Assembly (NCBI RefSeq): GCF_007097395.1
Contig: NZ_VKDC01000002.1
Location: 1-64,000, forward strand
DNA from: Fulvivirga sp. M361
Lineage (GTDB): Bacteria > Bacteroidota > Bacteroidia > Cytophagales > Cyclobacteriaceae
DNA: 64,000 nt
Direction: 5' to 3'
The stretch's first letter is position 1, and every line of letters begins with the position of its first letter. Made by a program: the position numbers and the translations under genes. Positions 24,872 through 61,842 of the stretch are shown piece by piece. Below the pieces are notes generated by a model that saw only the letters and a program-made list of their open reading frames with translations, was not told where the DNA came from and ran no database searches.

Positions 24872-24874
24872 CTA

Positions 24875-25426: not shown

Positions 25427-25442
25427 ATGGTTGGTTTTATCT

Positions 25443-27235: not shown

Positions 27236-28534
27236 CTAAATTTTAAGTTCTCTTAGTGCTTTCACTACCTGATCCAGTTCTTCTTTGGTATTATAAATAT
27301 TGGGTGAAAGGCGTATTCCATTGAAGCCATCATGAGTACCCGCTGCAGCAATTTTATAATCGGAATACAGCCTGGCCACTGCTGTATCCGAATCAATACC
27401 CGGCAGGTTAAATACCAAAATACAAGCATTCATCTTAGCATTTTCAGGAGTAACAAATTCAATTTCCCGAAGCGTCATGGACAACTTGTCCTTTAAACTA
27501 GTCGCCAATTCCCGCACCCGTGCCTCCACTTTGTCCTTGCCGATCATGTTATGGAATTCCACTGCCTTTCCAAAAGCAGCTATGGTAGCGTCATTGCGTT
27601 GTCCGTATCGGACCAGGTTTTCTATTTTCCATTCATTCCCCCAGGTCCAATCTTTGCTGATCACCAGTGGCCATACTTTATTGAGTTGGTTCTTTTTGAC
27701 ATATAATACACCGGATTCCTTTGGTCCTGTTAACCATTTATGGGCACTGCCGGTATAAAAATCGCATCCGAGCTCTTCCAGGTCGACATTCATAAATCCA
27801 AAGGTCTGTGCGCCATCGACCAGGCTGAGAATACCTTTATCACGGGCAATGGCACACAGTCGCTGAACAGGTAGCAGTGTACCTGATATGTTGGAAATGT
27901 GTGAAAAGCAGATCAACCTGGTTTTTTTGGTCATGACATCTGTAAACGGCCTGATCAGGTCTTCTTCATTTTCAGGGCTGCGTGGTGTACTCACTTTGAT
28001 AATCTTAAAACCAGCTCGTTTCGCACGCACTTCCCACGCAATATTTAAGGTCTGATGATTTTGCTCCCAGTAGATCACTTCATCCGCGGGTTTCAGATCT
28101 AGCCCATTGTTAATCATATTATTGCTTTCACTGGTGTTGCGGGTTATGGCTATCTCTTCAGGTTGGGCTCCAAGATAATCAGCCAACAGGTTTACTGTTT
28201 CATCGTAAATAGCATGGTATTTTTTACGATCCTGAGAGGAGGCATTTGAGTTCAGACTATCCAGGTGATCTGCCATTGCGTGGCTTACAGGATATGGGCT
28301 TGGACAAAAATTAGCAGCATTCATCATGATCAGGCCGGGCTTAATTTGATATTGATTTTTGACCAAAGCCCAGTAATCTTCTTCCGGTTGTGTCCATTCT
28401 TTGAATTTTGGAAACTGGTCAAACCTATTCCGGTTGGTCCATCCTATGGACGGCAGGGTGATCGCAGCCGCTGAGCCTCCTAATAGCTTCTTAATGAAAG
28501 ATCGTCGTTCGTATTTGTCCGTCATGATCATCAC
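27236..28534 (-). CDS. Tat-exported class V PLP aminotransferase-like protein
   Basis: 432 residues. The N-terminus has a twin-arginine signal (ERRSFIKKLLGGSAAAITLP), so the folded, cofactor-loaded enzyme would cross the inner membrane. The body is fold type I class V, related to isopenicillin-N-epimerase/cysteine-desulfurase-like proteins: TRNTSESNN, SHISNISGTLLP, SLVDGAQTFG, and the PLP lysine in GSAHKWLTGPKESG. The reaction is unknown. It lies between two sulfatases, 22 bp from the sulfatase-mutarotase gene on the same strand, so it is likely co-transcribed. A PLP enzyme in a glycan PUL is unusual; it could act on an amino sugar or a sulfur-linked compound (speculative). Confidence 0.85.
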   Translation of the reverse strand: MMIMTDKYERRSFIKKLLGGSAAAITLPSIGWTNRNRFDQFPKFKEWTQPEEDYWALVKNQYQIKPGLIMMNAANFCPSPYPVSHAMADHLDSLNSNASSQDRKKYHAIYDETVNLLADYLGAQPEEIAITRNTSESNNMINNGLDLKPADEVIYWEQNHQTLNIAWEVRAKRAGFKIIKVSTPRSPENEEDLIRPFTDVMTKKTRLICFSHISNISGTLLPVQRLCAIARDKGILSLVDGAQTFGFMNVDLEELGCDFYTGSAHKWLTGPKESGVLYVKKNQLNKVWPLVISKDWTWGNEWKIENLVRYGQRNDATIAAFGKAVEFHNMIGKDKVEARVRELATSLKDKLSMTLREIEFVTPENAKMNACILVFNLPGIDSDTAVARLYSDYKIAAAGTHDGFNGIRLSPNIYNTKEELDQVVKALRELKI

Positions 28535-28555: not shown

Positions 28556-31288
28556 TTATTCCGTCCGGACATCAAACCTGTATATGGTTTTATGTTCGTA
28601 TACCTCTCCTGGCCTTAATACAGGGCTGGGAAAGTTTTTATGATTGGGGGCATCCGGGAAATTTTGGGTTTCCAGGCAAAAAGCAGCATGTTCTGTCAGT
28701 GATCTCCCTTTCTTTCCTTTAATCTTATCCGATAAAAAATTTCCGGTGTAGAATTGCAGGCCTGGTTGTGTGGTATGCACTTCCATCGTTCTACCTGTTT
28801 TTGGATCGTGTATGATCGCTGCTAATGCCAGTTCATATCGTGTGCTTTTATTAAGCACAAAATTATGGTCATACCCGGCTGGATCAGCCTGTTCAATCAC
28901 TTTTGACTCCGTGAAGTCAAATTTTGTCCCTTTTACGGGAAGCACCTCACCGGTCGGGATGAGCGAAGCACCTATGGGAGTATAACTATCCGCGTTAATA
29001 TAAATTGTATGGTCCATGATCTGTAAATACTTCTCCAGATCCGGCCCGTACTCCCGGAATTGCTTTGTATCTTGCCCTGAAAGGTTAAAATATGAATGGT
29101 TGGTAAGATTGACTATGGTTGGTTTATCTGTTTTTGCCAGGTAATCGATCACCAGCTCGTTGTTATTGGTCAGGTAGTAGTCTACCCTTGTATCCAGGTT
29201 CCCGGGATACCCCTCGTTACCATCCGGACTGGTGTAGGTAAGTCTAAGTTTTTCCTGGTGGTCCTCCTCAACAATCTCAGCATCCCATAAAATCCTGTCA
29301 AACCCCTTCCTGTCTCCGCTATGTAAATGGTGAGGTGGACGATTTTTAGGTAGGTCATAGGTTTTCCCATCCAGCTCGAACTTACCATAAGCGATCCTAT
29401 TGGCATACCGACCGATGAGGGCCCCGAAGTGCGGACCATTTTTGGTCAGGTATTCCTCGAGTGTATCAAATCCAAGTACAATGTCTTTATAGAATTGATT
29501 TTTATCCGGTGTCAGTATCCGGGTAATGATACCACCGTAATTTGTGATCTTGACTTGTACTCCATCATAATTTTTTAAGGTGTAAAGGTGCACCTGTCTT
29601 CCATCAGGCATGGCCCCGAATTTTTCCTGATCAATGGCATAATCCGAGACGTATCTTCTTGCCTTACCTGCACGACCATCGAGCGGGAATACGTCACTTC
29701 GTTCTCCCCAATGATGCCATACATCTGCCATTGTTTTAACTTTTTCAGGAAATTCAGCAGCACGATCCTTCTGTTCGCTTCGATCCTTTCCGAGGTTAAA
29801 CAATTTCCATTCTCCATAGTATGGGGCCAATGGCTTCCCTCTGGATACCAGCTTCCAGTTCCCTATCCTGATGGCACGGTTTCCTTCATGCTCCCAATAA
29901 AGGGTATCTCTACCCAGCAGTCTTCCCTGCAATACCGGGCTCAAACTCAGACCGTCATAGGGATGTATGGGCCTGCCTTCAAATTCTTCAGGATAGCGGG
30001 CACCGGCTACATCCATGCTCGTGGCCATAAGATCTACAATATGTGCCGGATCATGTACCCACTTTCCCTTATCTTTAACTATTGCAGGCCAGGAAACGAT
30101 CAGAGGACTGCTGATCCCTCCCTCATGCACCCAATGTTTATACCTGCTGAAAGGGGTGTTACTGACATGTGCCCAGGCCATTCGATAACTTTCATAAGAC
30201 CCTGCTGTCCCCAATAGGGCCGGATCAGGATCCAATTCAGATTTATACTCAGCGGAAGCCCCATTATCCGATAAAAAGAAAATCAGGGTATTGTCAAGTT
30301 GACCATTCTGTTCAAGCGACAAAAGGATACGACCTATTCCCTGGTCCATGCAATCAACTTGTGCAGCGTACACGGCCATACGCTGCGTCATCTCTTTTTT
30401 CTTGGCTTCGTCAAGGTTTTTCCAGGCCGTTACTTCAGCATCTCTACCAATCAGTGATGCTTCTGCATCAATGACACCTAATTTTTTCATGCGTTCAAAT
30501 CTTTGCTTTCTTACCTCATCCCAGCCCGACAGGTATGTATGCTCATACTTGACTATATCCTCAGGTTTGGCTTGCAGAGGAAAATGGGGTGCAGTATAAG
30601 CCACATATAAGAAGAAGGGGTCTTCCGGTTGAGTTTTCGCATGGCTGGAGATAAAACTTACCGCGGTATCGCTGATGGCATCGGTATAATAAAAGCCTTC
30701 CGGATAAGAAATGGAATTGTTATTTCTTTTGAGGTCAACAGGAGTGAAAAAGTCAGCCAGCCCATTGATCGTACCAAAAAACTGAGCAAAGCCACGCTGA
30801 TTAGGCCAGCTTGCAACCGGAGTTGAGGACTCCATCAATTTCTTTTCGGTCACATGCCATTTGCCACTTATATAGCTGGTATAACCTGACTTTTTAAGCA
30901 CTTCCGGGATAGTAACGCATTGATCGTTCAGATTACCACGATAGCCCGGAGCAGTATTTCCTGAAGGTTCAGTCGTTAACCAGGCCACTCCGGCCTTGTG
31001 TGGGTGCAAACCTGTAAGTAATGCCGCCCGGGACGGACTACAGCGACCGGCATTGTAAAACTGAGTAAACTTCAAACCACCGGCAGCCAGCCGATCCAGG
31101 TTAGGTGTTTTAATTTCCGAACCATAACACCCCAGGTCAGAGTACCCCAGGTCATCAGCCATAATGATGATGATGTTGGGTTTTGATCCGGTGAGTGGGT
31201 CCGCAGAAGAAGTGCATGAAGTTATCAGATTGATTAACAGAAAACTCCCTATGATCAAGGATACAATATGTATATTTCTATATCTCAT
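28556..31288 (-). CDS. Sulfatase-aldose 1-epimerase fusion protein, lipoprotein
   Basis: 910 residues in one uninterrupted frame. Lipobox Cys25 (LITSC). Residues about 35-535 are an S1 sulfatase with Asp45-Asp46, formylglycine motif CSPSR at 83-87, GKWHV, and SDNGA near 340. Residues about 556-910 are a galactose-mutarotase-type domain (NYGGIITRI, GRYANRIAYGKF, HHLHSG near 655, catalytic His731 in NLTNHSYFNLSG, Glu873 in CLETQNFPD). A short linker joins them, with no stop or frameshift. Typical sulfatases end near 500 residues and GalM proteins are about 350, so both domains are full length. The last 4 bp overlap the upstream sulfatase stop (ATGA). Inferred role: desulfation and anomer conversion of the same sugar at the membrane. 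Confidence 0.92.
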   Translation of the reverse strand: MRYRNIHIVSLIIGSFLLINLITSCTSSADPLTGSKPNIIIIMADDLGYSDLGCYGSEIKTPNLDRLAAGGLKFTQFYNAGRCSPSRAALLTGLHPHKAGVAWLTTEPSGNTAPGYRGNLNDQCVTIPEVLKKSGYTSYISGKWHVTEKKLMESSTPVASWPNQRGFAQFFGTINGLADFFTPVDLKRNNNSISYPEGFYYTDAISDTAVSFISSHAKTQPEDPFFLYVAYTAPHFPLQAKPEDIVKYEHTYLSGWDEVRKQRFERMKKLGVIDAEASLIGRDAEVTAWKNLDEAKKKEMTQRMAVYAAQVDCMDQGIGRILLSLEQNGQLDNTLIFFLSDNGASAEYKSELDPDPALLGTAGSYESYRMAWAHVSNTPFSRYKHWVHEGGISSPLIVSWPAIVKDKGKWVHDPAHIVDLMATSMDVAGARYPEEFEGRPIHPYDGLSLSPVLQGRLLGRDTLYWEHEGNRAIRIGNWKLVSRGKPLAPYYGEWKLFNLGKDRSEQKDRAAEFPEKVKTMADVWHHWGERSDVFPLDGRAGKARRYVSDYAIDQEKFGAMPDGRQVHLYTLKNYDGVQVKITNYGGIITRILTPDKNQFYKDIVLGFDTLEEYLTKNGPHFGALIGRYANRIAYGKFELDGKTYDLPKNRPPHHLHSGDRKGFDRILWDAEIVEEDHQEKLRLTYTSPDGNEGYPGNLDTRVDYYLTNNNELVIDYLAKTDKPTIVNLTNHSYFNLSGQDTKQFREYGPDLEKYLQIMDHTIYINADSYTPIGASLIPTGEVLPVKGTKFDFTESKVIEQADPAGYDHNFVLNKSTRYELALAAIIHDPKTGRTMEVHTTQPGLQFYTGNFLSDKIKGKKGRSLTEHAAFCLETQNFPDAPNHKNFPSPVLRPGEVYEHKTIYRFDVRTE

Positions 31289-32736: not shown

Positions 32737-33033
32737 CTATTGTATCGAAAAACACCTTTTATTTGATTTTAAGTTTGATAAGCGTGTCCAACCGGTTAAG
32801 TCATATCCTGTCCTGGTAGAGATGGCCACAGAATCACTTAGCTGCCGTTCATTAGGTCCGTATTTGACGTACAGGGTACCTGCTCCGGAAGTTCTTATCC
32901 AAACACCAATACCGCCATCTGCCATTTTCCTTAAAATTGGCCCATAGGTTACTTCAACATTTTGGGCAACCCCCGGAGCCTGTAGCAAAAGGATCAAAAA
33001 GTATCCAACAAATCTTAAAAGATTACTTTCCAT
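32737..33033 (-). pseudogene. Truncated N-terminal domain of a PhoD-like phosphatase
   Basis: From the ATG at 33033 the product is 98 residues: a signal peptide (LLRFVGYFLILLLQAPGVAQ) and then an Ig-like domain of the kind that precedes PhoD-type metallophosphatases (YGPILRKMADGGIGVWIRT, then YDLTGWTRLSNL). Translation stops at a TAG where the catalytic domain would begin, and no downstream frame resumes it. The start overlaps the end of the metallophosphatase gene by 11 bp. It is most likely the remnant of a second phosphatase, or possibly a stand-alone secreted domain. Confidence 0.65.
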
Positions 33034-34147
33034 CCGACTCAATAAAACATCCTGTTTTAAGTTTTTCTGTTTGCTTTCCGGACTTATCAACGGTCATGGT
33101 ACCAATGGTCCGAAATCCCTTTTCCATTGCTTCAGGGCTAATGATTGCTGCCAATGACTTTCGGTTTTCTACTCTTGGAATGATATCAATCTCTTTGAGA
33201 GCAAGTTGAATTTGATCTGAACTTACCTTCGCCACCAGGTAATTGACGGTAGGGTTCCACCCAAACAGACTACCATGCGCAACCTGCTGCACATCATCTT
33301 CTTCTGTACAGGTAATGGCATGAACTTCTCCACACAGGTATAGATCGACATTATGCTTTGTAAGCGTCTTCCACAAATCTGATTCACGCCCCTTCTCCAA
33401 CATCATTCCACTGGAATTCAACTTATTCACCGGTGCCAGAATAGGTGTGTGTCCCATAACAATGACATGATCCACCTCTTTTTTTTCTGCAAGTACATTG
33501 CCCAACCACTCCAATTGTTTGCCTGAAACCTGTGCCACAATATGGCCCTCCGCCCCCTGACCGGGCTCGAATACGTCTACCGAAACAAACAAGGTGTTGT
33601 TATGAATAAAAGAGTACGCCAGCCCTTTCATATGATCAGGGCCGTTCATTGGCATTCGCATATAATTCCTGAACTGTTCTTCCAGCAGTGGCACCAGTTT
33701 GGCTTTTTCCTCAGGCCAGGGATTATCTCCTACCTCATGGTCACCCACAGATACATAATATTTTAATCCTTTTGCCTCCATTCTCGCTTTCCACGCTGGG
33801 TAAAAAATGGCGGCATTTTTTAAAATAGACTCCTCCGTTGGCTCTAAAATCGATGGCCACCTGCCATCCACCAGGTCGCCAGGTACTAAGATAAAATCCG
33901 GATTTTCCGCCTTAACGGCATCCAGGAAATATGAAAATGCTTCTTCAAAGCCCGGATGCGGATATCGGGCATCTTTGTTGAGGAAATCAGGGACGCTTAC
34001 GAAAGTCCAGGTTTTTTCCGATTCCTTTTGTTTTTCCTGAGGAGTGCAACCCAAAAACAGGATGCCTATGGTCAGAAGAAACCACCTCCGGCAATTCCTG
34101 ATCAGGGAGTCACTACCCTTTTTAAAGACGGTCATACTGTTTATCAT
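33023..34147 (-). CDS. Calcineurin-like metallophosphoesterase, lipoprotein
   Basis: 374 residues (a second ATG at residue 5 is possible). Lipobox (GILFLGC). The metallophosphoesterase blocks are VPGDLVDGR, VSVGDHEVGD, VMGHTPIL and LCGEVHAIT, supplying the two-metal site. The first block is atypical: the usual DxH reads SVPDFLN, so one metal ligand is changed. Expected to cleave phosphate esters in the periplasm. With the PhoD-like gene near 22 kb and the fragment next door, it adds to a phosphatase set inside the PUL. Confidence 0.82.
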   Translation of the reverse strand: MINSMTVFKKGSDSLIRNCRRWFLLTIGILFLGCTPQEKQKESEKTWTFVSVPDFLNKDARYPHPGFEEAFSYFLDAVKAENPDFILVPGDLVDGRWPSILEPTEESILKNAAIFYPAWKARMEAKGLKYYVSVGDHEVGDNPWPEEKAKLVPLLEEQFRNYMRMPMNGPDHMKGLAYSFIHNNTLFVSVDVFEPGQGAEGHIVAQVSGKQLEWLGNVLAEKKEVDHVIVMGHTPILAPVNKLNSSGMMLEKGRESDLWKTLTKHNVDLYLCGEVHAITCTEEDDVQQVAHGSLFGWNPTVNYLVAKVSSDQIQLALKEIDIIPRVENRKSLAAIISPEAMEKGFRTIGTMTVDKSGKQTEKLKTGCFIESDGK

Positions 34148-34173
34148 TGGCTTTTTGTTGAACCACTCTTAAT

Positions 34174-35379
34174 CTACCTGTCAAACGATTGCATCTCCAT
34201 AGAATACATCTGCTCTGTTCCATACTGGCCGGAATTGAAAAAGATCCTGGCTTTACCTCCCGGGGTTGCCAACAAGTGATGCCGCCAAAAATTCACGCCT
34301 ATTCCGCCATCCAATTCGGCCTGATTTAAATCCTCCGGATATCGAAAAGGACTATTGACTGTGTCCGGTGACCATAAACTTTCAAGACCTTCCGGTCCAC
34401 TGATTACCCATCCGCCTAAAGAAGGAGCCGGTTCCCTGTGGCTTTCATCGGCCGGTGAGGTAGGACTTCCATTGATCAGGCCGTACCATTGTTTGTTGTG
34501 CTTATCATAGAACACCTGAGGTGTACTCATCCAGCCCTGGTTCCAGGCTTTTGACTGCCCTGGTCGCTGTAGTATTTTTACTTTTTCAGCTTCAGCCCGA
34601 CTGGGGTGCCACCAGGCCAGTACCGTTCCTGATCCAAATTCTGACTCTTTTTGTTCCTGCTGAGCGTATTTTGGATACGCTTTGTAAAAAATGGCTACCT
34701 TATTTTCATCTTTTACCCAGTAGGCCGTAGGTGTATCACAATGTAAACCATCAAACCAATTTTCATCAGGCGAAAGCACAGGCTGTTTAACTACAGTCCA
34801 GGGGCCGGCCAATCGATTGGCAAAAGCTACCTGTATAAATTTATTTTTACCCCCTTGCTCATTGGGAGTTGTACAAGTGAAAACAGACCAATATTTTTCC
34901 TCGATTTTAGCCGCACGATTAGGTTTATAGGCGTCCATGATGACCCACCATTTATGCCAGCCGATTTCGTAAGTGAAATCTTCCGGGTTTGATATCTCCA
35001 CCTGGCCCAATTTTTCCCAGTCACCCGGGCCAATCTCTTCCGCAGATTTGCTTTTTGCCATTCCGGTGCTTAATAGCTCTTCACCATCCTCAGCTCTGCC
35101 CATAGCGAAGTAAAACATTCGCCATGTATGAATTTCCTCGTCCCATACTATGCAGGGGTCACCTACTACATGGGAGTCAAAGCCATTTTCATCAGACCGG
35201 GTAAGTACAGCACGGGGATCCATTTGCCATCTGGCTTCTCTGAAATTGGCTGGTACCTTAATCGGGGATGCTGACAAGGAAACTTCATCGTGGTTTTCCG
35301 GATGCTTTGACTGGCAGCTTACAATCAAAAAAATGGTGAACAAGAGATATGCTTTGAATTTTAGATCTTTGAGCTTCAT
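34174..35379 (-). CDS. Five-bladed beta-propeller glycoside hydrolase, GH43/GH117-clan-like, lipoprotein
   Basis: The ATG at 35379 gives about 401 residues with lipobox LIVSC; the longer frame reaches into repeat-like DNA and is unlikely. The protein is rich in Trp and blade-like motifs: VVGDPCIVWDEEIHTWRMFYF, WSVFTCTTP, and FDGLHCDTPTAYW with an acidic residue in a typical position. The fold guess is a GH43/GH32/GH117-type propeller; the family cannot be fixed by eye. In this PUL a GH117-like enzyme would release a 3,6-anhydro sugar, and a GH43-like enzyme an arabinose or xylose. It lies between a sulfatase and the metallophosphatase. Confidence 0.6.
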   Translation of the reverse strand: MKLKDLKFKAYLLFTIFLIVSCQSKHPENHDEVSLSASPIKVPANFREARWQMDPRAVLTRSDENGFDSHVVGDPCIVWDEEIHTWRMFYFAMGRAEDGEELLSTGMAKSKSAEEIGPGDWEKLGQVEISNPEDFTYEIGWHKWWVIMDAYKPNRAAKIEEKYWSVFTCTTPNEQGGKNKFIQVAFANRLAGPWTVVKQPVLSPDENWFDGLHCDTPTAYWVKDENKVAIFYKAYPKYAQQEQKESEFGSGTVLAWWHPSRAEAEKVKILQRPGQSKAWNQGWMSTPQVFYDKHNKQWYGLINGSPTSPADESHREPAPSLGGWVISGPEGLESLWSPDTVNSPFRYPEDLNQAELDGGIGVNFWRHHLLATPGGKARIFFNSGQYGTEQMYSMEMQSFDR

Positions 35380-35407
35380 TTGATTTGTTTTAATTGTTCT
35401 TATACTT

Positions 35408-35421
35408 AGGTTCAGAGAACA
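35408..35421. repeat. Degenerate REP hairpin
   Basis: AGGTTC-AGA-GAACAT, a half-decayed copy of the REP hairpin near the glycosidase start. Confidence 0.4.
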
Positions 35422-35469
35422 TACACCAGCACTAGTTTTATATCCAGGGCAGTACATTAAGTTCTGTTA

Positions 35470-36942
35470 TTAGGGTTTTCTAAAATAATAGATCCTTTCC
35501 CTGTTCCTGGCAGGTTTGTTTTGCAATTTCAATGATGAAGGATCATAGTCCGGGTTCTTTTCCAATGGAAATGGCGCCCCGATCTCTTTTCGCCAATCAC
35601 GCATGCGCTGCAACATTTGCCGTGTTATCTCCGGCTCAAGCGATGCAAGGTTATTTGCTTCTCCAATATCATCTCTGAGGTTATACAATTCCAGGTGATT
35701 ATCTTCGAAGAACTCCATTAGCTTATAATCGCCCATTCTTATGACACCAACGGGTGTGGTACGCCACAACTGATCCAGTCCATATCCCGCTTGTAAGTAG
35801 ACGGGATAGTGCCAAAATATGGCATCTCTTTTTAATGTCTTTTTTTGGGTGAACAACGGCTTAATACTTTCTCCATCCAACGGATAGTGCTTTGGTGGTT
35901 TGGCACCTGCCAGCTCGAGAAAAGTGGGATAAAAGTCCGTACCGATCACAGCCTCATTACATATGGAAGCAGCCGGAACTTTACCTGGCCATTTAACGAT
36001 CATAGGGACCCTTATCCCACCTTCGTAGAGCATCCCTTTAAAGCCTTTCAGAGGTTTCATGGATGTGACAGCGTGCAGCCCTCCATTGTCAGAGAAAAAC
36101 ACGACTACGGTATTTTTCGAAATCCCCAATGTCTCCAGTTTGTCCATCACCCTTCCAATATTATCATCGAGGCTTTCGATCATTGCAGCATAGATGGGAT
36201 CGAACTGACCGTTGGACGGTGGTTTGGGAATGTATTTCCACATCTTAGAATCCCTGGCCTGAATGGGTGTATGGGGCGAATGGTACGCCATGGTCAGGAA
36301 AAACGGCCCCTCCTTATAATCTTCTATAAACTTCAAGGCTTCATCCGTGAGCCTGTCAGTCAGGTACTCTCCTTCCGGCCCGTCTTCGAGGATTTCATGC
36401 TGGTATGGGCTGAAATAAGAGTAAGGTTTTCCATTATAACACCCGGCTACATTCACATCAAAACCCTGTTCGGCGGGTCCATTTTTGTCATGGGCAGCAC
36501 CCAGGTGGTACTTGCCTACGAAACCCGTGGTATACCCGGCAGGTTTCAATGCTTCCGCAATGGTGATTTTCTCCGGATCCAGCCTGTGTTGATTGGGTGT
36601 CGGGATCACTGCACGCCATTCGGTTTCACCCCGCACCGAACTCCCTACGGTATATACCCCGGTTCTCGGCGCGTATTGTCCGGACATGATCGCCGCCCGA
36701 CTCGGTGCACAATTAGGCGCATTAGCATAGGCATTGGCAAAAAACATACCTTGTGCCGCCATTTTGTCAAGGTTCGGAGTTTCAAAAAACTGACTTCCAT
36801 TAAACCCGGTATCTTTCCAACCAAGGTCATCGGCAATAATGAACAGGATATTAGGTTTTTGGACCTGCGCCTTTTGTGCGTAGACACAAACCAGAGGCAT
36901 CATCAGTAAACTTAATGTAATTTGTATTTTAAATAACTTCAT
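35470..36942 (-). CDS. Type I (S1) sulfatase
   Basis: 490 residues with a cleavable signal peptide ending YAQ (no lipobox), so probably soluble in the periplasm or exported. The formylglycine motif is CAPSR at 78-82, ADDLGWKD lies near 37-44, GKYHLGAA is present, and SDNGG comes later. Its last 4 bases are coupled as ATGA with the stop of the next sulfatase upstream. The TFxxPQ-like substrate loop cannot be assigned. Confidence 0.92.
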   Translation of the reverse strand: MKLFKIQITLSLLMMPLVCVYAQKAQVQKPNILFIIADDLGWKDTGFNGSQFFETPNLDKMAAQGMFFANAYANAPNCAPSRAAIMSGQYAPRTGVYTVGSSVRGETEWRAVIPTPNQHRLDPEKITIAEALKPAGYTTGFVGKYHLGAAHDKNGPAEQGFDVNVAGCYNGKPYSYFSPYQHEILEDGPEGEYLTDRLTDEALKFIEDYKEGPFFLTMAYHSPHTPIQARDSKMWKYIPKPPSNGQFDPIYAAMIESLDDNIGRVMDKLETLGISKNTVVVFFSDNGGLHAVTSMKPLKGFKGMLYEGGIRVPMIVKWPGKVPAASICNEAVIGTDFYPTFLELAGAKPPKHYPLDGESIKPLFTQKKTLKRDAIFWHYPVYLQAGYGLDQLWRTTPVGVIRMGDYKLMEFFEDNHLELYNLRDDIGEANNLASLEPEITRQMLQRMRDWRKEIGAPFPLEKNPDYDPSSLKLQNKPARNRERIYYFRKP

Positions 36943-38372
36943 TTTACACTATCATTAGGTATATAAGGTGCATTGGTTTCAGGCAGCAATTGAGTCAATT
37001 CCGCTTTGATCGGATCATACAGGGATTGACCAGCCAAATTGATCCATTCTAATGGATCTACCGCGTGATCATACAATTCCTCTGTTCCATCTGCATAGCG
37101 GATATACCGGTAGCGTTTAGATCGGACACTATGATTTTTATACCGGTATGTGGTGACCACGGGCTTATCCCATTCTCGGGAAGGGTCTTTTAACAACGGG
37201 TGCAGGCTGCTACCTTCCAGGTCATTTTTTTGTGGCAACCTGGTCAAATCCAGTAAGGTGGGATAAATATCAATCAAACTGACCGGCCAGTCCACTTTGG
37301 AACCGGCTTGCGTCACTCCCGGGACTTTGAACATCAGTAAACTTCTGGTACTTTCTTCCCAAAGGGTCGCCTTTCGCCAATGACGCTTCTCTCCTAAATG
37401 CCATCCGTGATCAGACCAGAGCACCACAATAGTATTATTTTTGTACTTACTGTTTTCCAGGGCGTCTAAAACTCTTCCAAGACATTCATCTGCTAACGTT
37501 AGTGCGGCCAGGTAGGCCTGTACGCCTTCTTTCCATTTATCGTATCGTAACACTCTCGCATGGTCCCCCTCTACACTGTCTCCGGGTATGTTATCATCTT
37601 TCAGAATCTTTAACTTGGCCATTCCTCTTCCCGCAGCAGGTACATCGTCCAAATCGTTTTTATTCACTTCCGGAAGCCTGATCTCATCCAAAGGATATCG
37701 ATCGAAGTACGATTTAGGAATGTACCAGGGCAAATGAGGTTTATAAAACCCACAAGCCAAAAAGAACGGTTTTTCATGGTCTATATTCAGCTGGTTCGAT
37801 ACCCAATCGGCTACTTTCCAATCCCCCATTTCCGAAGGCTCCACATCCAACGCACCCCAGTCAAAAAAACGGTCATGCATTGGCATACCATGCATTGGGA
37901 CCTCAGGGGGAGCAGGATCCTCTGGTCTGATCTGTTCGTTAGAAGGCCAATAATAATCCCACGATACGGTATCGTGTCTATAATGAAATACCTTACCGGA
38001 ACCCATGGTTTTATAACCGTTTTTTCTGAAATATTCCGGAAGCGTATGTGCTTCTTTTAACACCTCACTATTGCGTAGAGGCTGCTTATTGTCATAAACC
38101 CCCGATGTAAAAGGATGGATTCCAGTAAGCAACGCCGAACGTGAAGGGTTGCACAAAGGGGCGGCAGGATAGGCCATGGTAAACAGTGTGCTCTGACCAG
38201 CCAATCCATCAATGTTGGGAGTAATTGCATTGGGATGTCCATTAAGTACCCCTACCCAGTCATTAAGGTCATCTACCGCGATAAAAAGGACATTCAGTTT
38301 CTCATTTTGCCCCAGTACTGCCTGGGTACTGCATAAGATGAATACTATAATAGTCAGCTGCTTCATTTGCAT
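36939..38372 (-). CDS. Type I sulfatase, iduronate-2-sulfatase-like
   Basis: 477 residues. Signal peptide ending VLGQ. The formylglycine motif is CNPSR at 74-78 and VDDLNDWVGVLNG follows the pattern VDDLxxWVGxxxGHP common in iduronate-2-sulfatase-like members; LWSDHGWHLGEKRHW appears later. The P-to-Asn change after Cys (CN rather than CT or CA) is tolerated in the family. It is coupled to the 35470-36942 sulfatase by an ATGA overlap. Confidence 0.92.
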   Translation of the reverse strand: MQMKQLTIIVFILCSTQAVLGQNEKLNVLFIAVDDLNDWVGVLNGHPNAITPNIDGLAGQSTLFTMAYPAAPLCNPSRSALLTGIHPFTSGVYDNKQPLRNSEVLKEAHTLPEYFRKNGYKTMGSGKVFHYRHDTVSWDYYWPSNEQIRPEDPAPPEVPMHGMPMHDRFFDWGALDVEPSEMGDWKVADWVSNQLNIDHEKPFFLACGFYKPHLPWYIPKSYFDRYPLDEIRLPEVNKNDLDDVPAAGRGMAKLKILKDDNIPGDSVEGDHARVLRYDKWKEGVQAYLAALTLADECLGRVLDALENSKYKNNTIVVLWSDHGWHLGEKRHWRKATLWEESTRSLLMFKVPGVTQAGSKVDWPVSLIDIYPTLLDLTRLPQKNDLEGSSLHPLLKDPSREWDKPVVTTYRYKNHSVRSKRYRYIRYADGTEELYDHAVDPLEWINLAGQSLYDPIKAELTQLLPETNAPYIPNDSVK

Positions 38373-38437
38373 AAAAATCTCTTCACTGTGATGGTATAAG
38401 TTTCAGTCACATTTTTTTATGTCTGGTCAGTCCCATT

Positions 38438-40477
38438 CTATTCCTGGTCAATAGGTTTAAATTCAATCGCTTGCCCGCCACCCGGTGCCAACCTGATCTT
38501 TAATACAGTATCCGATGCCACCGTTTGCAGGACATGGGAAATCGCATGAGGATTGGACTCCCAATGCGCATTGCTTGCATCAGCATAGATGGCTGCCCGA
38601 TATATTTTCCCCTTTTCCAAAAAGTCCAGGGGCACTTCAAATTCACGAGCTTCCTCATTGGTAATACTTCCTAAAAACCAGCGGTTCCCGGCTTTACGGG
38701 CAATGGTAACATGCTCTCCAATAGCTGCATTCAACACTCTTTGATCTTCCCAGTTTACATCCAGGTCTCTGATGAACTGAAAAGCCGGCTGACCTTCATA
38801 GTTTTCAATCCTGTCAGCAGCCATCACCATGGGACTGTAAAGGACTACCATAAGTGCCAGCTGTTTAGCAATGGTCGTCCTCACCCTCAAGGTCAGGTTA
38901 CGTTCTTTGAATTCATCCCATTTGGGCATTCTATCCCGGGAATTACTGAAGGTAACATCAAAAATTCCAGGGGTATAGTCTACCGGGCCTGCGAGCATCC
39001 TGGTGAAAGCCATGATGGTGGTATGGGAAGGGCTGTTCCCTTTGCTCCAGGCATTCCATTCCATGCCTCTCACTCCTTCACGGGTCATCATATTGGGCCA
39101 GGTGCGACGAATCCCTGTATCTTTGATGGGTTCGTGTGCATTGACCATAATCTTGTTGGCAGCTGCCATCTCCACGACCTTACGATAATGATCGACCATA
39201 AATTGGCCATGGTGGCTTTGGCCTGGCACCCTGATCTTTCCTGCGTAACCCGTTTTGATAGCATGCACCCCAAGGCTTTTGTACATTACAATAACTGAAT
39301 CCAGGCGGGCTTCGAATTCGGGAATATTACCCCCTGTCTCCTGGTGACCTATAAATTCAATCCCTTTTTCTTTGGCATAACGTACCACCTCTACGGGATC
39401 AAAATCCGGATAGGGAGTAATATAATCAAAGCTGTCCTCGGTAAGCCAGGTATCCCAACCCTGGTTCCAGCCCTCCACCAACACCCCCTGAAGGTTGTTT
39501 GCCGCTGCAAAGTCAATATACCGCTTAGCATTTTCTGTAGTAGCTCCATGTTTGGGTCCTGCTTTCCACGTTTCCAGGAACAGGTGCAGGCTCCACCAGA
39601 TACCAATGTATTTCATAGGTTTGATCCATGAGGTATCCTCGATTCTACCTGGTTCATTCAGGTTGACGATAAGATTGGATTCAATAAGACCTCCTGCCGT
39701 TTTAGAAAGTTGAATAGTCCGCCATGGGCTCAACATGGGGAAGGTGGCTTTTACCTTCACTCCGTCCGGCCAGGGGGCCAGTTCACTTTCAAGCAATGTC
39801 GATCCTTCTTGGTGTACTAATGTCATGCAGGCATAGTTGGTCAAGTTGGCCTCATGGATACTCAGGAAGCTATTCTTAGCGGTCTTCATCGTAACAGGAG
39901 TCCCCAGTGAAGCTGACTCGCTCAACCGTGTTTGTCGAAATCTCTTTTCATAGGAGTCATGATCTGCCTTGATCCACCAGGTTTCAGGATCACCGGCAAT
40001 GTTGAATTGAGTTTCCTCGGAAATAATGAAAAGGGAATCCACTTCTTCCTGATCAGGTACTTCATATCGAAAACCCAGCCCATCGTCAAAAGCCCGAAAA
40101 TATATGTTCAACCTGCGGCCCCTGCTTTCCTGACCTACAAGGAATATCTTTAATTCATTATAATGGTTCTGTACGGACCGTGTTTCTCCCCAGGGACGTT
40201 CCCAGGTTTCATCTTTTGTTGATCTTATCACTTTGTCTATCGTGAAACCTGCCAGCAGATCGGGCTGTTTTCTTAAATCAAGACCCAGCCCTGAGGTATC
40301 CACGATCATTTCTGTATCTAAAGCCACAGTGTATTGCGGTCGTCCTTCAACGCTTAAAAGAAAATTGATCTCAACCTGTCCGTTTGGCGAGGTCAGGATC
40401 AGATCATGCTGTTGCTTACAACTGATCATTATTATGGACCAAAGTAATAGTCCGGTCATATGGGATATCCTGATCAT
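38438..40477 (-). CDS. GH97 family glycosidase, inverting (SusB-like) group
   Basis: 679 residues with lipobox Cys20 (IMISC). The N-terminal sandwich starts LTSPNGQVEINF; the barrel shows VEGWNQGWDTW at 334-344, HAIKTGYAGK at 405-414 and the catalytic Glu449 in VNAHEP. In the inverting group the KTGYxGK site carries Gly where retaining members have the nucleophile Asp; here it is Gly410, so an inverting alpha-glucosidase-type mechanism is likely. It acts on alpha-linked sugars in the periplasm. It starts one base before the stop of the lyase gene. Confidence 0.88.
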   Translation of the reverse strand: MIRISHMTGLLLWSIIMISCKQQHDLILTSPNGQVEINFLLSVEGRPQYTVALDTEMIVDTSGLGLDLRKQPDLLAGFTIDKVIRSTKDETWERPWGETRSVQNHYNELKIFLVGQESRGRRLNIYFRAFDDGLGFRYEVPDQEEVDSLFIISEETQFNIAGDPETWWIKADHDSYEKRFRQTRLSESASLGTPVTMKTAKNSFLSIHEANLTNYACMTLVHQEGSTLLESELAPWPDGVKVKATFPMLSPWRTIQLSKTAGGLIESNLIVNLNEPGRIEDTSWIKPMKYIGIWWSLHLFLETWKAGPKHGATTENAKRYIDFAAANNLQGVLVEGWNQGWDTWLTEDSFDYITPYPDFDPVEVVRYAKEKGIEFIGHQETGGNIPEFEARLDSVIVMYKSLGVHAIKTGYAGKIRVPGQSHHGQFMVDHYRKVVEMAAANKIMVNAHEPIKDTGIRRTWPNMMTREGVRGMEWNAWSKGNSPSHTTIMAFTRMLAGPVDYTPGIFDVTFSNSRDRMPKWDEFKERNLTLRVRTTIAKQLALMVVLYSPMVMAADRIENYEGQPAFQFIRDLDVNWEDQRVLNAAIGEHVTIARKAGNRWFLGSITNEEAREFEVPLDFLEKGKIYRAAIYADASNAHWESNPHAISHVLQTVASDTVLKIRLAPGGGQAIEFKPIDQE

Positions 40478-42682
40478 TTACTGTTTGGTAATATGCATGG
40501 TAAAAATGTCTTCTTTCATTTCCTTTTTGGCGCTGAAGAGTATCCTTACCATATGCTCGCCCCAGAACTTTTTGATCCTTAGATCATGCGCTGTATTTAA
40601 TGGCAGCCTTTCCAGTGTAGCAGAAAGCTTTTCAGGATCGTAGGTGACCAGGATACTTTGACCACGCCCGGGGTCCACGAGCAGTCTGACTTGTCCCGGT
40701 ATATCGGCATTTACCTGGCAAATGGTCATAAAAGAAAGCTGAATGTCCTGCCCGGGTTTCTCCAATTGGTAGACGTCTGACAAGATGATGCCTTTTTTCC
40801 TATCCAAGGTAAGAGAACGTCGCCAGGAGCTTAATCCGGCCCCGGGAGGATAAGCCCCTGCTATTTCCATAGAAAGAGTGGTCTTTCTTTTGCCAGATGT
40901 ATATGCCACATTTTCCGCCTTGAATTCCAACCCATTCTGCTGCATTACTCCATTTATGGTTGGAAGATTATGGTATGCGGATTGGTTATTCCAGATCTCA
41001 TAACGTTCGGGACCAAACGTTTTAGAGTTATAAGTAGCCATACCTACATCTATAATGACTGGTTTTCCATCATAATAGACAATGAAATTGCCAACATCAT
41101 TGTGGTTATGTCCCTGGCCTTCTGCATTGTGCCCGGCTTTTGCACCAAGGAAAAAACCCTCCGATGACCCCGCTTTTTGGCGGGCTGCCATCAACTGTGA
41201 TACGGGCATCCAGACATCTCTAAGAAAAAGATGCTCCTGTGAGCGGTCTTGCATTTCTTCCACCAGAAATATCTCCCGCAATACTCTTCCCATTCCATCG
41301 TGTGTGCCGGCACGCTCACTATAATTTCCAAAAGGAGCAAGGTAAGCGCCCAGGTCCATCAGGGAAGGGTCGTTGATCCTGGAGCCGTAATGATAGATCA
41401 GGAAAGGATTGTTTCGGATGTAAGGAACAGCATCTGCATAATTGAAGTAATACTGTTCATTAATGTGCATGCGATTCAGGTATTGACCCATTTGAGTGAT
41501 CAAGGGATCATTGTAGATATTGAATTTGCCATTCGTTGCACTATAAAGTATCTCTAAGGCATCAAATAACGACCCCGCCGCATGTCCCCAGTAGTGTGGC
41601 CCCTCATCTGAAGCTCCATCTGAAGGGTTTTTGCTCACGTAAGCGTCCAATACCCTTAGGATCTTTGAAATATGATCAGCCAGTACTTCTTTATCATCGA
41701 TCAAAAGGACGGCCGTAGCCATCCAGTTTGAAGCAATCCAGGGATTCCAGTTACCTACTTTCTCTCCATCAGGGTCCAGCCCCATCCACCAGAAATCATC
41801 TCTGGTAAGTGCCGGTGTTAATATCCTTCGTTGTGCTTCCAGCTTTACTCTACGATGAATAAGAGGAGACACTACATCAAGTTGCTCCCGAAGTAAATAA
41901 ACTGACCAGGCTAACATTTCAGCCGTTTCGGCAGCAAAGAGGTCAACCACAGGTTCTTCGACATCCGGCAAACCCATTCCGGCTTTTTGCATGCCAATGT
42001 GTGCGGGTATCCCCCAAAAGGTCTCCTCACAGATGAGCCAGATACCGTTAATGATCTGATCAATAAACCGCCCCTTATTTTCCATACATTCGGCTAATAC
42101 CAGTTGCCGTAGTTTAATACGCCTCTCATATAACTTACTGCTGTAAGGTTGACGGTTTCCGGTTCGGGCATAGTCCAGAAAAAGGGTGGCGGGAAGAGCG
42201 CTCCATTCATAAGATAAGGCTTTTTCGCCACGTTGGATCCACCGGTTCTGCAGGTATTGTGGTACTTGTTCCCAAGCCGCCCGATCGCTGGCTTTGGGAT
42301 ACAGCTGCCAGCTGTCCGGTGATCCCAAAATAGATCGTAGTTGTTCCAGGGTATATCTTTCAGTGAGCGATTGCCAATTAACGTTGGGTTGGGAGTATGT
42401 CGGGTGGTAGCCAAACCAACATACTATACTACATATGAGAAAAAGGAGGTTTTTGAATAGTCTGGGAGGGTAAAGGCTATGGAGGTGAACAAAAATGAAG
42501 GTGAGTGTAGCAGTGTAGCAAGTTCGGAGAACCTTCTGTATTGTGTAGTCACAGGTTTGGAAAACCTGCGCCAGTTGGGTTTGGAAAACCTGCGCCAGTT
42601 GGGGTTGGCGGGGTGGCAGTTGGGCGGTTTGGAAAACCTCTGTCGTGCCGGCATTGGGTAATGCTGAATTCAAGTGGATCAT
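40478..42682 (-). CDS. Heparinase II/III-family polysaccharide lyase, REP-extended N-terminus
   Basis: 734 residues. Body: an (alpha/alpha) toroid (about 110-430, GNWNPWIASNWMATAVLLID), then a beta-sandwich with GHNHNDVGNFIVY. It should cleave uronic-acid glycans by beta-elimination, leaving an unsaturated uronyl end. The start ATG overlaps the GH88 stop as ATGA. Residues 1-70 are encoded by REP copies (AQVFQT repeated), and the hydrophobic export segment (LLFLICSIVCWF) appears only at about residues 78-91. No ATG lies closer, so the annotated start may be correct, or the original start was lost to REP insertion. Confidence 0.85.
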   Translation of the reverse strand: MIHLNSALPNAGTTEVFQTAQLPPRQPQLAQVFQTQLAQVFQTCDYTIQKVLRTCYTATLTFIFVHLHSLYPPRLFKNLLFLICSIVCWFGYHPTYSQPNVNWQSLTERYTLEQLRSILGSPDSWQLYPKASDRAAWEQVPQYLQNRWIQRGEKALSYEWSALPATLFLDYARTGNRQPYSSKLYERRIKLRQLVLAECMENKGRFIDQIINGIWLICEETFWGIPAHIGMQKAGMGLPDVEEPVVDLFAAETAEMLAWSVYLLREQLDVVSPLIHRRVKLEAQRRILTPALTRDDFWWMGLDPDGEKVGNWNPWIASNWMATAVLLIDDKEVLADHISKILRVLDAYVSKNPSDGASDEGPHYWGHAAGSLFDALEILYSATNGKFNIYNDPLITQMGQYLNRMHINEQYYFNYADAVPYIRNNPFLIYHYGSRINDPSLMDLGAYLAPFGNYSERAGTHDGMGRVLREIFLVEEMQDRSQEHLFLRDVWMPVSQLMAARQKAGSSEGFFLGAKAGHNAEGQGHNHNDVGNFIVYYDGKPVIIDVGMATYNSKTFGPERYEIWNNQSAYHNLPTINGVMQQNGLEFKAENVAYTSGKRKTTLSMEIAGAYPPGAGLSSWRRSLTLDRKKGIILSDVYQLEKPGQDIQLSFMTICQVNADIPGQVRLLVDPGRGQSILVTYDPEKLSATLERLPLNTAHDLRIKKFWGEHMVRILFSAKKEMKEDIFTMHITKQ
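42520..42650. repeat. Cluster of four REP-like hairpins
   Basis: A damaged hairpin near 42520-42535; CACAGGTTT-GGA-AAACCTGCG (42550-42570); GGTTTGGAAAACCTGCGCC (42579-42597); GGTTTGGAAAACC with flanks (42623-42650). Stem bases changed in pairs relative to the RAYT copies (GGTTC/GAACC to GGTTT/AAACC), so pairing is preserved. The cluster lies in the apparent 5' coding end of the lyase gene. Confidence 0.8.
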
Positions 42683-44040
42683 AACTTCATTCTTTTGAAT
42701 CTTATCAGGGCTTCTATAAAGTAATAGTCAGCGTAGCTGAGGGGGACGTCTACCTCACTTTTGGCGGGTCTATGACCTACGCTGTGTCTGAGGATAAAAT
42801 TACCGTTCCCGCCTTTTTGGGCCAGGTAATTTTCTCCTGACAGGCTTCTTATGATTGTCTCTGCCGCTTTCAGGTATTTATTTTTTAATTCATCCTTCAC
42901 ATAGAAACTTAGTTCGATCAATGCCGACGCCGTGATGGCCGCTGCTGATGCATCCCGGAGCGCTTTGGGAATATCAGAAGCATTAAAATCCCAATAGGGA
43001 ATGTGATCTTCGGGCAGATTAGGGTGGCCCAGAATGAAATTAGCAATCCTTTCGGCTTGCCTCAGGTACTTATCATCTCCGGATTCGCGATAAGTCATTA
43101 CAAAGCCGTAAAGCCCCCAGGCCTGTCCACGCGCCCACGCGGACCCGTCCGCTGCTCCCTGGGCAGTTTTTTTGGCCAGTACTTCTCCTGTCAGGGAATC
43201 GTAAGCCAGTACATGGTAGCTGCTGTTATCTGATCTGAAATGGTGGGCCAGCGTAACATCAGCGTGGCTTACGGCTACCTTATTGTATTTTGGGTCACCG
43301 CTAACTCTTGAAGCCCAGAAAAGGAGTTCAAGGTTCATCATGTTATCAATAATGACGGGGTAATTATACTCCTGGAACCCTTCCCAGGACCTGATAACCC
43401 CGGTTGTTTCTCTGAATCGGCTGATCAGTGACTCGGCGCTTTGGATCAATATGGGAGTGGTCGAACTATCACCCGTTATCCGGATGCGATTGCCATAGCT
43501 GCACAGCATCTTGAAACCTATGTCATGGTCCAGGGTGTTGTATTGTTCTTTTTCCAACGTAGCGGTCCTTACAAGTGCCATCTGTTTAATGTGCTCATCT
43601 CCGGAATACTCATATAAATACCACAGGCTCCCCGGGAAAAATCCACTGGTCCACCATTGCCGTTGGTTGGTCACCAGCTGCCCTTCCTTATTCAATGACC
43701 TTGGAAAAAGAGTATCCGGCAGTACTTTATGCATTTGTTTGTATTGATAGATCGCCCTGTCAAGGCTTGAGTTTATGATCTCTTCCAGGGGTGTTCCCTT
43801 TTCTTCCTGGACGGGGGGCTGGCAGGAGAATATAATAAGGGTAAGCGTAAGAAGACCAACTAAGCAGGTCTGGTGGATCTTTATGTTTTGTATTATGCAG
43901 AAGACCACAATTGATGGGTTTCGTTTTATTCTCAGGTTCGGAGAACCTTTAGGATTGGGTTGGCACAGATTCAGAGAATCTGCGCCATTAATAGCAGATG
44001 AAGATGAGGTAAGGTTGTTATGGTGAAGCTGTTCTGACAT
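42679..44040 (-). CDS. GH88 unsaturated glucuronyl hydrolase, REP-extended N-terminus
   Basis: 453 residues. Catalytic Asp173 in DHDIGF and Asp232 in DNMMNL, plus WWTSGFFPGSLWYL and WARGQAWGLYG, are typical of GH88. It hydrates and releases the unsaturated uronate left by a lyase, matching the adjacent lyase gene. The lipobox (IIFSC, Cys73) comes late because residues 17-40 are encoded by REP DNA (43934-43986). A GTG at the Val-Val of PSIVVF could be the true start. ATG lies 1 bp after the GH92 stop. Confidence 0.88.
   Translation of the reverse strand: MSEQLHHNNLTSSSSAINGADSLNLCQPNPKGSPNLRIKRNPSIVVFCIIQNIKIHQTCLVGLLTLTLIIFSCQPPVQEEKGTPLEEIINSSLDRAIYQYKQMHKVLPDTLFPRSLNKEGQLVTNQRQWWTSGFFPGSLWYLYEYSGDEHIKQMALVRTATLEKEQYNTLDHDIGFKMLCSYGNRIRITGDSSTTPILIQSAESLISRFRETTGVIRSWEGFQEYNYPVIIDNMMNLELLFWASRVSGDPKYNKVAVSHADVTLAHHFRSDNSSYHVLAYDSLTGEVLAKKTAQGAADGSAWARGQAWGLYGFVMTYRESGDDKYLRQAERIANFILGHPNLPEDHIPYWDFNASDIPKALRDASAAAITASALIELSFYVKDELKNKYLKAAETIIRSLSGENYLAQKGGNGNFILRHSVGHRPAKSEVDVPLSYADYYFIEALIRFKRMKL
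43934..43986. repeat. REP doublet with compensatory stem changes
   Basis: AGGTTC-GGA-GAACCT (43934-43948) and GGCACAGATTC-AGA-GAATCTGCGCC (43962-43986). The second stem has GATTC/GAATC where other copies have GGTTC/GAACC: both sides changed and pairing is kept. Confidence 0.8.
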
Positions 44041-44041
44041 G

Positions 44042-46327: not shown

Positions 46328-46437
46328 TTCAGACCTCATGACACTTTGCTTTTCTATCTTCCTCATTATAAGATTGACCTCCATGAACTGAAAAGTCTTT
46401 TATCCGTCCTTTTTTCATCCGGCCCATCGTTCCATGT

Positions 46438-47877
46438 CTATTTATTATCGACATTTAAAGCCTCCAGGGGAATATCAAACATGACGCAGTTGGCCTTTAT
46501 CTCATCATGATAAGCATAGTTCCAACCATCAGTGTCTTTTATGTAATACCTTTTCCCATTCACGGCGTAATACCAGTCTCCTCCTCCTTCCGGCATAGCC
46601 CGATAAAATTTTTGAGGAACAGGTATATAGGCTTTGACTTGTTTGACGTCTTCAAGTGTATTGATATAAAAAGTCTGCCGAATAGAACTCCCCTGCCCGA
46701 TCACCATCCAATTAGGTCGGTTTTCACCGGCAGTGGTAGTTCCAAAAGAGGTTAGCCACATTCTGGGGATATGATCGCTTTTATAGGCTAAATGTTCTTT
46801 CTGTGGATACAGCAACCTCAATTCACGTGCAGAACCCAACGAAAAATCTACATTATAATACGGTGCATCTTTATACATCCCATATAAATGAAATATCCAG
46901 TTGGCATGTAATTCATAAAATATCTCCAATTCTCCTTTACGATCGTCGGACAGGCAGGTAAAATCCACGTAATCCATTTTCATGGATGGAATATTATATT
47001 TATGTGGATCTGTGATCATTTCCTGAAAAGAAAAAGTAAACATTGGGCCTACCTCGACCTTTCCGGTCATGTTCCTTAAAGAATCTAAAATAGGCACAGA
47101 GTTTTCCACATACCGCCATTGTCCGTCGACAAACGCTTCAGCACATGTATGATGCGAGAAAGCCATTAACCTGACAGGTATATCTATTGTACTGCACAAT
47201 CCTGCAAATGCATTAGCCGCCCCAACACAAAAATCACCATGGATACAAAAATCAACAGCATGGATATACCGTCCCCGCTTAAGTTTGGAGCTTGAAGTCT
47301 TTCGTTTCTGATAGGCATACCGGGCAAAGGCCATTACTTTGTCCCAATCAGCCGATGAACTATCAAGTGCGACATTTTTTAGTATCTCATTTCTCTTTTG
47401 AACCATGAAATCATAGTCTTTATGATAATCTCCAAACTCCCTGGATAAAGTGGATATTTCATTTCCTCTTTCGATATCAGGTAAGGTCAGTGTGTAAGCG
47501 TTTGGCTTTGGTATATTTTTATCTTTGAGTAAAGAATACTGCCCGTTACGTTTGTATTCATCCGCTTTGGTATACACCACCTCCACGGGCCATCTGGGCG
47601 CTTCAGGAAGAGTTCTGCCACCGTACTTGCCACTGGTCCCTGTCCATTCTCCCGAACCCTTCGATTTGTAATATTTAACCTGAGGGGAAATTGGCATTGG
47701 ATTTAAGATCACCCTAAAAAACTGTTCCCCCGGTTTATCACAACTCAATTCAATCACATTATTGTCAAACGCCCAGTAGGAATCGTCAATGCTCTGCGCC
47801 AATAACGGACTTAACTTCAATGTGCAAATCATTACAAATAGCATGCGTATGACTGATGTATGCCGATCTTTTATCAT
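46438..47877 (-). CDS. Secreted transglutaminase-like superfamily protein
   Basis: 479 residues with a signal peptide ending LLAQ. A transglutaminase-like core at about 180-265 has the Cys217 site (GDFCVGAANAFAGLC), His242-His243 in FSHHTCAEAFVDGQW and an acidic or amide third residue in WRYVENS. The N- and C-terminal parts are beta-rich and unfamiliar. Such cores may be proteases, amidases or inactive binding folds. Ten bases separate it from the upstream GH3 gene, so it is in the operon. Role unknown. Confidence 0.65.
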   Translation of the reverse strand: MIKDRHTSVIRMLFVMICTLKLSPLLAQSIDDSYWAFDNNVIELSCDKPGEQFFRVILNPMPISPQVKYYKSKGSGEWTGTSGKYGGRTLPEAPRWPVEVVYTKADEYKRNGQYSLLKDKNIPKPNAYTLTLPDIERGNEISTLSREFGDYHKDYDFMVQKRNEILKNVALDSSSADWDKVMAFARYAYQKRKTSSSKLKRGRYIHAVDFCIHGDFCVGAANAFAGLCSTIDIPVRLMAFSHHTCAEAFVDGQWRYVENSVPILDSLRNMTGKVEVGPMFTFSFQEMITDPHKYNIPSMKMDYVDFTCLSDDRKGELEIFYELHANWIFHLYGMYKDAPYYNVDFSLGSARELRLLYPQKEHLAYKSDHIPRMWLTSFGTTTAGENRPNWMVIGQGSSIRQTFYINTLEDVKQVKAYIPVPQKFYRAMPEGGGDWYYAVNGKRYYIKDTDGWNYAYHDEIKANCVMFDIPLEALNVDNK

Positions 47878-47886
47878 ATCTTCATT

Positions 47887-53950: not shown

Positions 53951-53969
53951 GGTCGCGTTGTTTGAGTAT

Positions 53970-55217: not shown

Positions 55218-55274
55218 ATTTTTTGAGCTCCTACCTATACTTGAATTAACACATCGCACTTTCATGGATATCAC

Positions 55275-57057: not shown

Positions 57058-57080
57058 TTTATACAACTTTAAAACCATCA

Positions 57081-60572: not shown

Positions 60573-60631
60573 AAACTCTAAATTAGGTTTAGATAAATAG
60601 CGGGGCCCAACCGGACCTCCGATGAGATAAC

Positions 60632-61651: not shown

Positions 61652-61842
61652 GCCGGAAAAGTCTGATCGCTTTTTCCGGCTTTCAATACACTGACAAATG
61701 AGATGGGAAATTCTAATCTCTTTTATCAAAAAAAATTGGAGATACGGAAATATACATGAAGGTTGGATGTAATGATCCTTACTCTACTACCTGGTTAGGA
61801 CTTAATAAAACAGGGGTATTTAGCAGGAAATAAAGCAACGCT

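Follow-up and report, generated by a model that had tools for sequence, protein, structure and literature searches.

A sulfatase joined to an aldose 1-epimerase in one frame of Fulvivirga sp. M361: an old and seemingly very rare fusion

Background

Why should a single polypeptide carry both a sulfatase and an aldose 1-epimerase (mutarotase)? The question is raised by a gene in Fulvivirga sp. M361, found within the first 64,000 nucleotides of contig NZ_VKDC01000002.1; this whole stretch, called here the window, was analysed. Mutarotases are usually seen as housekeeping enzymes for free hexoses. A mutarotase that stays joined to an apparently exported sulfatase, and has loop changes peculiar to its clade, would mean that control of the anomer matters when sulfated polysaccharides are degraded outside the cytoplasm; in addition, the fusion is a further architecture for the annotation of sulfatases and carbohydrate enzymes.

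The fusion gene and its domains

The gene is an open frame of 910 codons that starts with ATG on the minus strand (Table 1), a strand on which the initial annotation was silent. Frame 1 of the plus strand has many stops across 28556-31288, an interval in which no listed plus-strand ORF exceeds 209 aa. The initial annotation described a 910-residue frame with a complete S1 sulfatase (CSPSR at residues 83-87) and a complete mutarotase domain, and both descriptions hold in the Pfam matches. PF00884 is matched over its full profile (1-301 of 301; E 5.7e-61, 206.9 bits against a gathering threshold of 25), while PF01263 is matched over positions 2-299 of 299 (E 5.5e-90, 302.2 bits against 27), with the noted His731 and Glu873 both present. 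The sulfatase unit as a whole extends to about residue 552; untailed free sulfatases stop 0-32 residues beyond query residue 535 in an alignment of 50 rows, and a long linker would not fit at the joint. By eye, the N-terminus reads as a putative lipoprotein signal ending at Cys25, with PATSC in the related L060 protein (see below) where the fusion has ITSC.

Table 1. Coordinates of the fusion gene, its parts and its neighbours in the window
Feature	Position	Strand	Basis
Fusion gene, S1 sulfatase + aldose 1-epimerase, 910 aa	28556..31288	minus	ORF list, translation, Pfam
Putative lipoprotein-type signal, lipobox-like ITSC, Cys25, residues 1-25	31214..31288	minus	translation read by eye
Sulfatase domain PF00884, residues 37-430	29999..31180	minus	Pfam
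CSPSR formylglycine motif, residues 83-87 (Cys83 to Arg87)	31028..31042	minus	sequence and alignment
Joint, residues 536-552	29633..29683	minus	alignment to L060
Aldose_epim domain PF01263, residues 568-904	28577..29587	minus	Pfam
13-residue insert, residues 743-755, downstream of His731	29024..29062	minus	alignment
Upstream sulfatase gene, 456 aa	31285..32655	minus	Pfam, gene map
Class V aminotransferase, 21 bp downstream of the fusion	27236..28534	minus	Pfam, gene map
Polysaccharide locus, upstream part	33023..62508	minus	profile and PDB matches
SusC	57081-60572	minus	
SusD	55570-57081	minus	

The same join in other genomes

A collection of 84,980 species was scanned for close relatives only, and 41 pattern matches were reduced to 13 loci. 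Residues 1-910 are covered in one of these loci, L060 (Flammeovirgaceae bacterium BBD 1991-12, Cytophagales). Its counterpart of the fusion is one intact 928-residue frame at 11290-14076(+), 77% identical over residues 1-910, in which both Pfam domains are found; the placement of the genome G990 in the genome searches assigns L060 to the window's own genus. (G990 itself was considered as a further fusion genome and set aside, because its stretch is the L060 contig, with 18,001 of 18,001 letters in agreement.) In the alignment of the two proteins, gaps fall only in the signal at the N-terminus and at the extreme C-terminus, and residues 536-553, which span the joint, are ungapped and 61% identical. 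Ten gene pairs, including the fusion, follow one another in the same order at 71-87% identity; within the matching span L060 has four genes that the window is without, and a transposase there is present in the window but not in L060. The frameshift or misassembly that the initial annotation named as what would overturn the fusion is thus not seen, since the joint is intact and ungapped in L060 among the same neighbours.

G060, the genome of another genus in the same family, probably holds a third copy of the fusion, interrupted by an assembly gap within the gene. The upstream genes of the locus are present, and at the very end of contig L125 the start codon lies in the same overlap and is followed by about ten codons. 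On contig L075 the gene picks up at residue 670, at 74% identity, and continues to the aminotransferase. The missing middle has no close match on any other G060 contig.

Two other long stop-free frames among the matches listed were considered as fusions, one of 998 residues (C87 of the genome G159) and one of 936 residues (C284 of G009). Each resolves into separate genes once start codons are considered. The length of the C284 frame is 392 in the PF01263 count described below, against 936 in the stop-free listing.

How rare the fusion is

Genomes of the same order, phylum, class and family were searched in samples that overlap. With a cut-off of E 1e-165 and at most two candidates scored per genome, matches were found in 4 of 390 genomes of the order and 3 of 395 of the phylum, and in each search the window's own match alone covers both halves. 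The epimerase half finds only the window's own genome among 395 of the class (E 1e-113). At E 1e-108 it finds 11 of 390 genomes of the family, of which eight carry free epimerases and three make up the fusion clade: the window's own genome, G990 (the L060 contig) and G060, whose copy is cut. Fifteen genomes of the window's own genus are listed in the family search, and the fusion is found in two of them. PF01263 was also counted in 60 genomes of the family; of the 104 matches listed, all but that of the window, whose frame is 919 aa, lie in frames of at most 428 aa.

Among plasmids, 1,003 of 72,556 records matched, and in one of them, from Catenovulum, a match spans 80% or more of the query; considered as a fusion, this record proved to have the halves as two genes in the opposite order. 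Viral contigs scanned with the epimerase half gave no relative, and those scanned with alignment A1 gave just two distant free epimerases. In the literature searched, no sulfatase-epimerase fusion is described in the titles or abstract openings listed (domain-architecture databases may record one), and no paper gives both Pfam accessions, PF00884 and PF01263. The fusion had been called uncommon from the sequence, with the proviso that it might already be widely described. With three fusion genomes out of 390 in the family, and one of those copies cut, the first statement is borne out, and neither the literature nor the genome searches show wide description. Taken together, these searches make the fusion look very rare; its parts are of known kinds.

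The sulfatase half

The best PDB match of the sulfatase half is BT4683 (7ALL; E 5e-118) and the second is a Pseudomonas arylsulfatase (1HDH; E 5e-84), after which the matches drop clearly to S1_16 and S1_19 chains (3e-49 and 2e-47). Both leading chains match nearly the whole half and share its active-site set and the O2 Arg/Glu pair, but they are 523 and 536 residues long, against 910 in the fusion. Judged by sequence, the half resembles sulfatases of the SulfAtlas subfamily S1_4; its score stays below the cut-off of every NCBIfam sulfatase model. No epimerase is named among the best 60 of the 84 PDB chains that match this half. One chain, 6hr5, is by its name an alpha-L-rhamnosidase/sulfatase (GH78), and so likewise combines a sulfatase with another carbohydrate enzyme, the partner there being a glycosidase.

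The sulfatase alignment was limited to rows of 400 bits or more; of its 50 distinct rows, 48 are free sulfatases and 2 are fused. Cys83, Arg87, Lys143, His145, His235, Asp341, Asn342 and Lys384 are identical in all 50, and Asp45 and Asp46 are kept in 49 (one row has a gap); we take these, with CSPSR, which fits the formylglycine pattern C-x-P/A-x-R, to be the motif and catalytic set of the enzyme. Arg82 (50/50) and Glu347 (48/50) align, by our own count from the PDB alignment, with BT4683 positions 72 and 335, presumably the sugar-contacting pair of that enzyme. Because Arg82 and Glu347 are kept across the whole set, they are a family trait rather than a sign of a special substrate here. Only one site in this half is peculiar to the fusion, Ala102 (Gly in 48/48 free rows); the two inserted residues, 111-112, are shared by 2 and 3 of the 48 free sulfatases. 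A quick tree of 89 rows places the fused half beside 13 free rows; the resulting group of 15 has an SH-aLRT of 96, and the 13 by themselves have one of 80. PF03781, relevant to the conversion of Cys to formylglycine, is matched at eight places in the genome.

The chain 7ALL is identified as BT4683 in PMC12421950; this enzyme is described as an endo-acting S1_4 sulfatase for internal, O3-sulfated Gal, in which Glu and Arg lie at O2 of Gal and affinity for Gal monosaccharides is low (PMC10154612).

The epimerase half

Human GALM (1SNZ, 4RNL) matches nearly the whole epimerase half, at E 1e-86 and 3e-77, with the catalytic residues shared. All seven residues checked (N630, R631, H656, H731, D807, Q841 and E873), whose roles we assume from those in GALM, are present in the window and in L060, and the last four are also found in the G060 piece, which begins at 670. 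Position 841 is Gln in 3/3 fusion-clade rows and in 2/25 free relatives, the other 23 having Glu. The retained catalytic residues favour mutarotase activity, short of proof.

Around this core the half differs from GALM in being joined to a sulfatase and in having the insert, a short loop after 801 and His653. The insert is present in 3/3 fusion-clade rows and 0/25 free relatives, and the loop after 801, ahead of the GYDH loop, is shortened in the fusion clade by five columns that are filled in at least 90% of free rows. Three substitutions are also peculiar to the fusion: Q598 (2/2 rows, G060 being cut there; Gly in 22/25 free rows), H653 (2/2 rows, again with G060 cut; Asn in 25/25) and N691 (3/3 rows; Glu in 23/25). 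With several fusion-only changes here against one site in the sulfatase half, the mutarotase has been reshaped more, while its chemistry residues are retained. Q598, H653, N691 and the loop changes could also mean that mutarotase activity is changed or lost. The half passes the cut-off of the PRK11055 galactose-1-epimerase subfamily (NF008277; 285.7 vs 240) and misses that of the Leloir GalM equivalog, TIGR02636 (318.8 vs 397.65 bits). In the epimerase tree it lies on a long branch (0.77), and no free-standing sister is resolved, 11 of 24 inner branches being open. Three other epimerases are encoded in the genome, which therefore has candidate mutarotases besides the fused one.

Age and selection

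Between the window and L060 the whole gene has a pS of 0.75, which is near saturation, and a pN of 0.14. The values are 0.73 and 0.13 for the sulfatase half (residues 33-535) and 0.77 and 0.13 for the epimerase half (residues 554-910); since the synonymous rate is saturated, no dN/dS value is given. Near-saturated pS with low pN, alike in both halves, indicates an old fusion of which both halves have been kept by selection.

The locus

The stop of the upstream sulfatase gene overlaps the start of the fusion by 4 bp, and the counterparts of this gene are 79% (L060) and 77% (G060) identical. The aminotransferase is also found directly downstream of the fusion in both genomes (73% in L060, 69% in G060). 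(The best NCBIfam match of the aminotransferase is PvdN, far under its cut-off, and the L060 counterpart has, by eye, a Tat-like signal at its start.) Farther upstream lie sulfatases, GH92, GH3, a SusB-like GH97, two GH88/GH105-type proteins, a lyase closest to PL33 chains, SusC, SusD and an ECF sigma/FecR pair. The SusC/SusD pair with co-directional carbohydrate enzymes marks the region as a polysaccharide utilisation locus. PL33 enzymes are reported to act on glycosaminoglycans and gellan (PMC11848413), and we infer that the locus targets a sulfated, uronic-acid-containing glycan. Mutarotases are not unusual in polysaccharide loci as separate genes, as in the Maribacter locus for arabinogalactan reported in PMC11036162. 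Promoter-like sites number 23, against a shuffle mean of 22.9, and terminator-like sites 16, against a shuffle mean of 11.5 (sd 3.7).

What the fusion may do

On balance we lean towards a lipoprotein that would be exported, probably to the periplasm, and would have two catalytically active heads, in the service of a locus whose likely target is a sulfated, uronic-acid-containing glycan. Its Cys83 would be converted by a formylglycine-generating enzyme. The N-terminal, S1_4-like half would then remove a sulfate ester, most likely from O3 of a galactose-like residue, a preference suggested because Arg82 and Glu347 align with BT4683. At a free reducing end, the C-terminal half would switch sugars between their alpha and beta anomers, and its reshaped loop pattern suggests that its substrate may be an oligosaccharide or an unusual sugar. 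From the sequence and its setting, we infer the export, both activities, the substrate and the benefit of the joining to the locus. A precedent in role is NanM of E. coli, described as a periplasmic mutarotase, encoded upstream of a transporter, that may help uptake (PMC10017367); NanM is a beta-propeller rather than a GALM fold, and so it is a precedent for the role only. Comparable in architecture is the bifunctional GAL10 protein (1z45), in which, as here, a mutarotase domain is fused to another sugar enzyme. Its partner domain we take to be the UDP-galactose 4-epimerase of the intracellular Leloir pathway of yeast.

The weak point of the two-headed reading is that an endo-type sulfatase itself creates no reducing end. 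Moreover, if the half behaves like BT4683, which is endo-acting and weak on Gal monosaccharides, desulfation and mutarotation need not share one sugar; by this analogy, the traits of BT4683 argue against a simple two-step reaction on one free sugar, and the initial annotation's suggestion that the sulfated sugar is desulfated and changed in anomer at one site is supported in part only.

One alternative, raised in the initial annotation as a binding domain, which we regard as unlikely though the most serious of those considered, is that the epimerase half is no longer a mutarotase and has become a sugar-binding or spacing module that would hold the sulfatase on its glycan, in the manner of CBM tails. 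Five of the 50 aligned S1_4-like rows (L031, L032, L033/L119, L113 and L114) do extend beyond residue 535 by a C-terminal tail of 157-165 residues (about 160), in the place taken by the epimerase in the fusion, and all five belong to the 13 free rows that group with the fused half in the quick tree; of four such proteins tested, one reaches the Pfam cut-off for CBM_4_9. The fusion-only changes in the epimerase, with H653 three residues from His656, point the same way. However, all seven of the checked catalytic and binding residues are retained, and the epimerase half is constrained as much as the sulfatase.

Rather more doubtful is a bolder, specialised version of the coupling, in which an endo-type sulfatase would be paired with a mutarotase adapted to sulfated oligosaccharides, at their reducing end, and not to a free hexose, so that a single exported protein would both desulfate chains and set them to the anomer that the next enzyme or transporter needs. 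A mutarotase reshaped to act on oligosaccharide ends would remove the difficulty of the missing reducing end.

Origin of the fusion

In G159 and G009, separate sulfatase and epimerase genes adjoin in the order of the fusion on one strand, about 100 and about 150 bp apart, an arrangement that is a plausible starting point for the fusion; the two genes are also adjacent, in reverse order, in Catenovulum. It should be noted that G159 and G009 were picked out because they were suspected fusions, and that none of 20 epimerase regions fetched has a sulfatase neighbour within the stretch. Such neighbours lend some credit to an old, neutral joining of adjacent operon genes, with nothing gained beyond co-expression and co-export, a reading that we place slightly lower still in probability. 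Against it, the neighbours in G159, G009 and Catenovulum are not, in the trees, the closest relatives of either half, and the halves have remained one gene while synonymous sites diverged almost to saturation, and the fusion has kept pace with its locus. A frameshift, misassembly or chance frame is hardly credible, for although caution about chance frames is fair, two other long frames having proved to be separate genes, the same ungapped joint in a second genome, L060, contradicts an artefact.

As a separate observation, G009 has a run of genes (L074, 2368-8392) with a sulfatase, a free aldose epimerase and a ThuA-like protein, together with genes that, by our own reading, are ribulokinase-like and ribulose-phosphate epimerase-like. 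This run suggests a sulfated arabinose-type substrate.

Other observations in the window

The transposase at 24875-25474 (minus) is of the Y1 type (PF01797) and is not found between the matching genes of L060. Five REP-like palindromes, GGTTC-N3-GAACC, surround it (24676-25490), with one more copy at 43935-43947, and it looks like a REP-associated transposase. L060 has a PhoD-like gene of 611 residues at the place where the window has a 117-residue frame (32737-33090); this frame, with 53% likeness to residues 1-89 of that gene, is probably a decayed remnant; G060 has no PhoD-like gene at this site. Neither Pfam nor NCBIfam gives a match for the 427-residue protein at 34174-35457, although its counterparts in L060 and G060 are 80% identical; in the PDB it has only a weak match, to a 3,6-anhydro-alpha-L-galactosidase (E 0.015). 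Finally, a 579-residue protein at 2139-3878 combines an alpha/beta-hydrolase domain with an AraC-type HTH domain.
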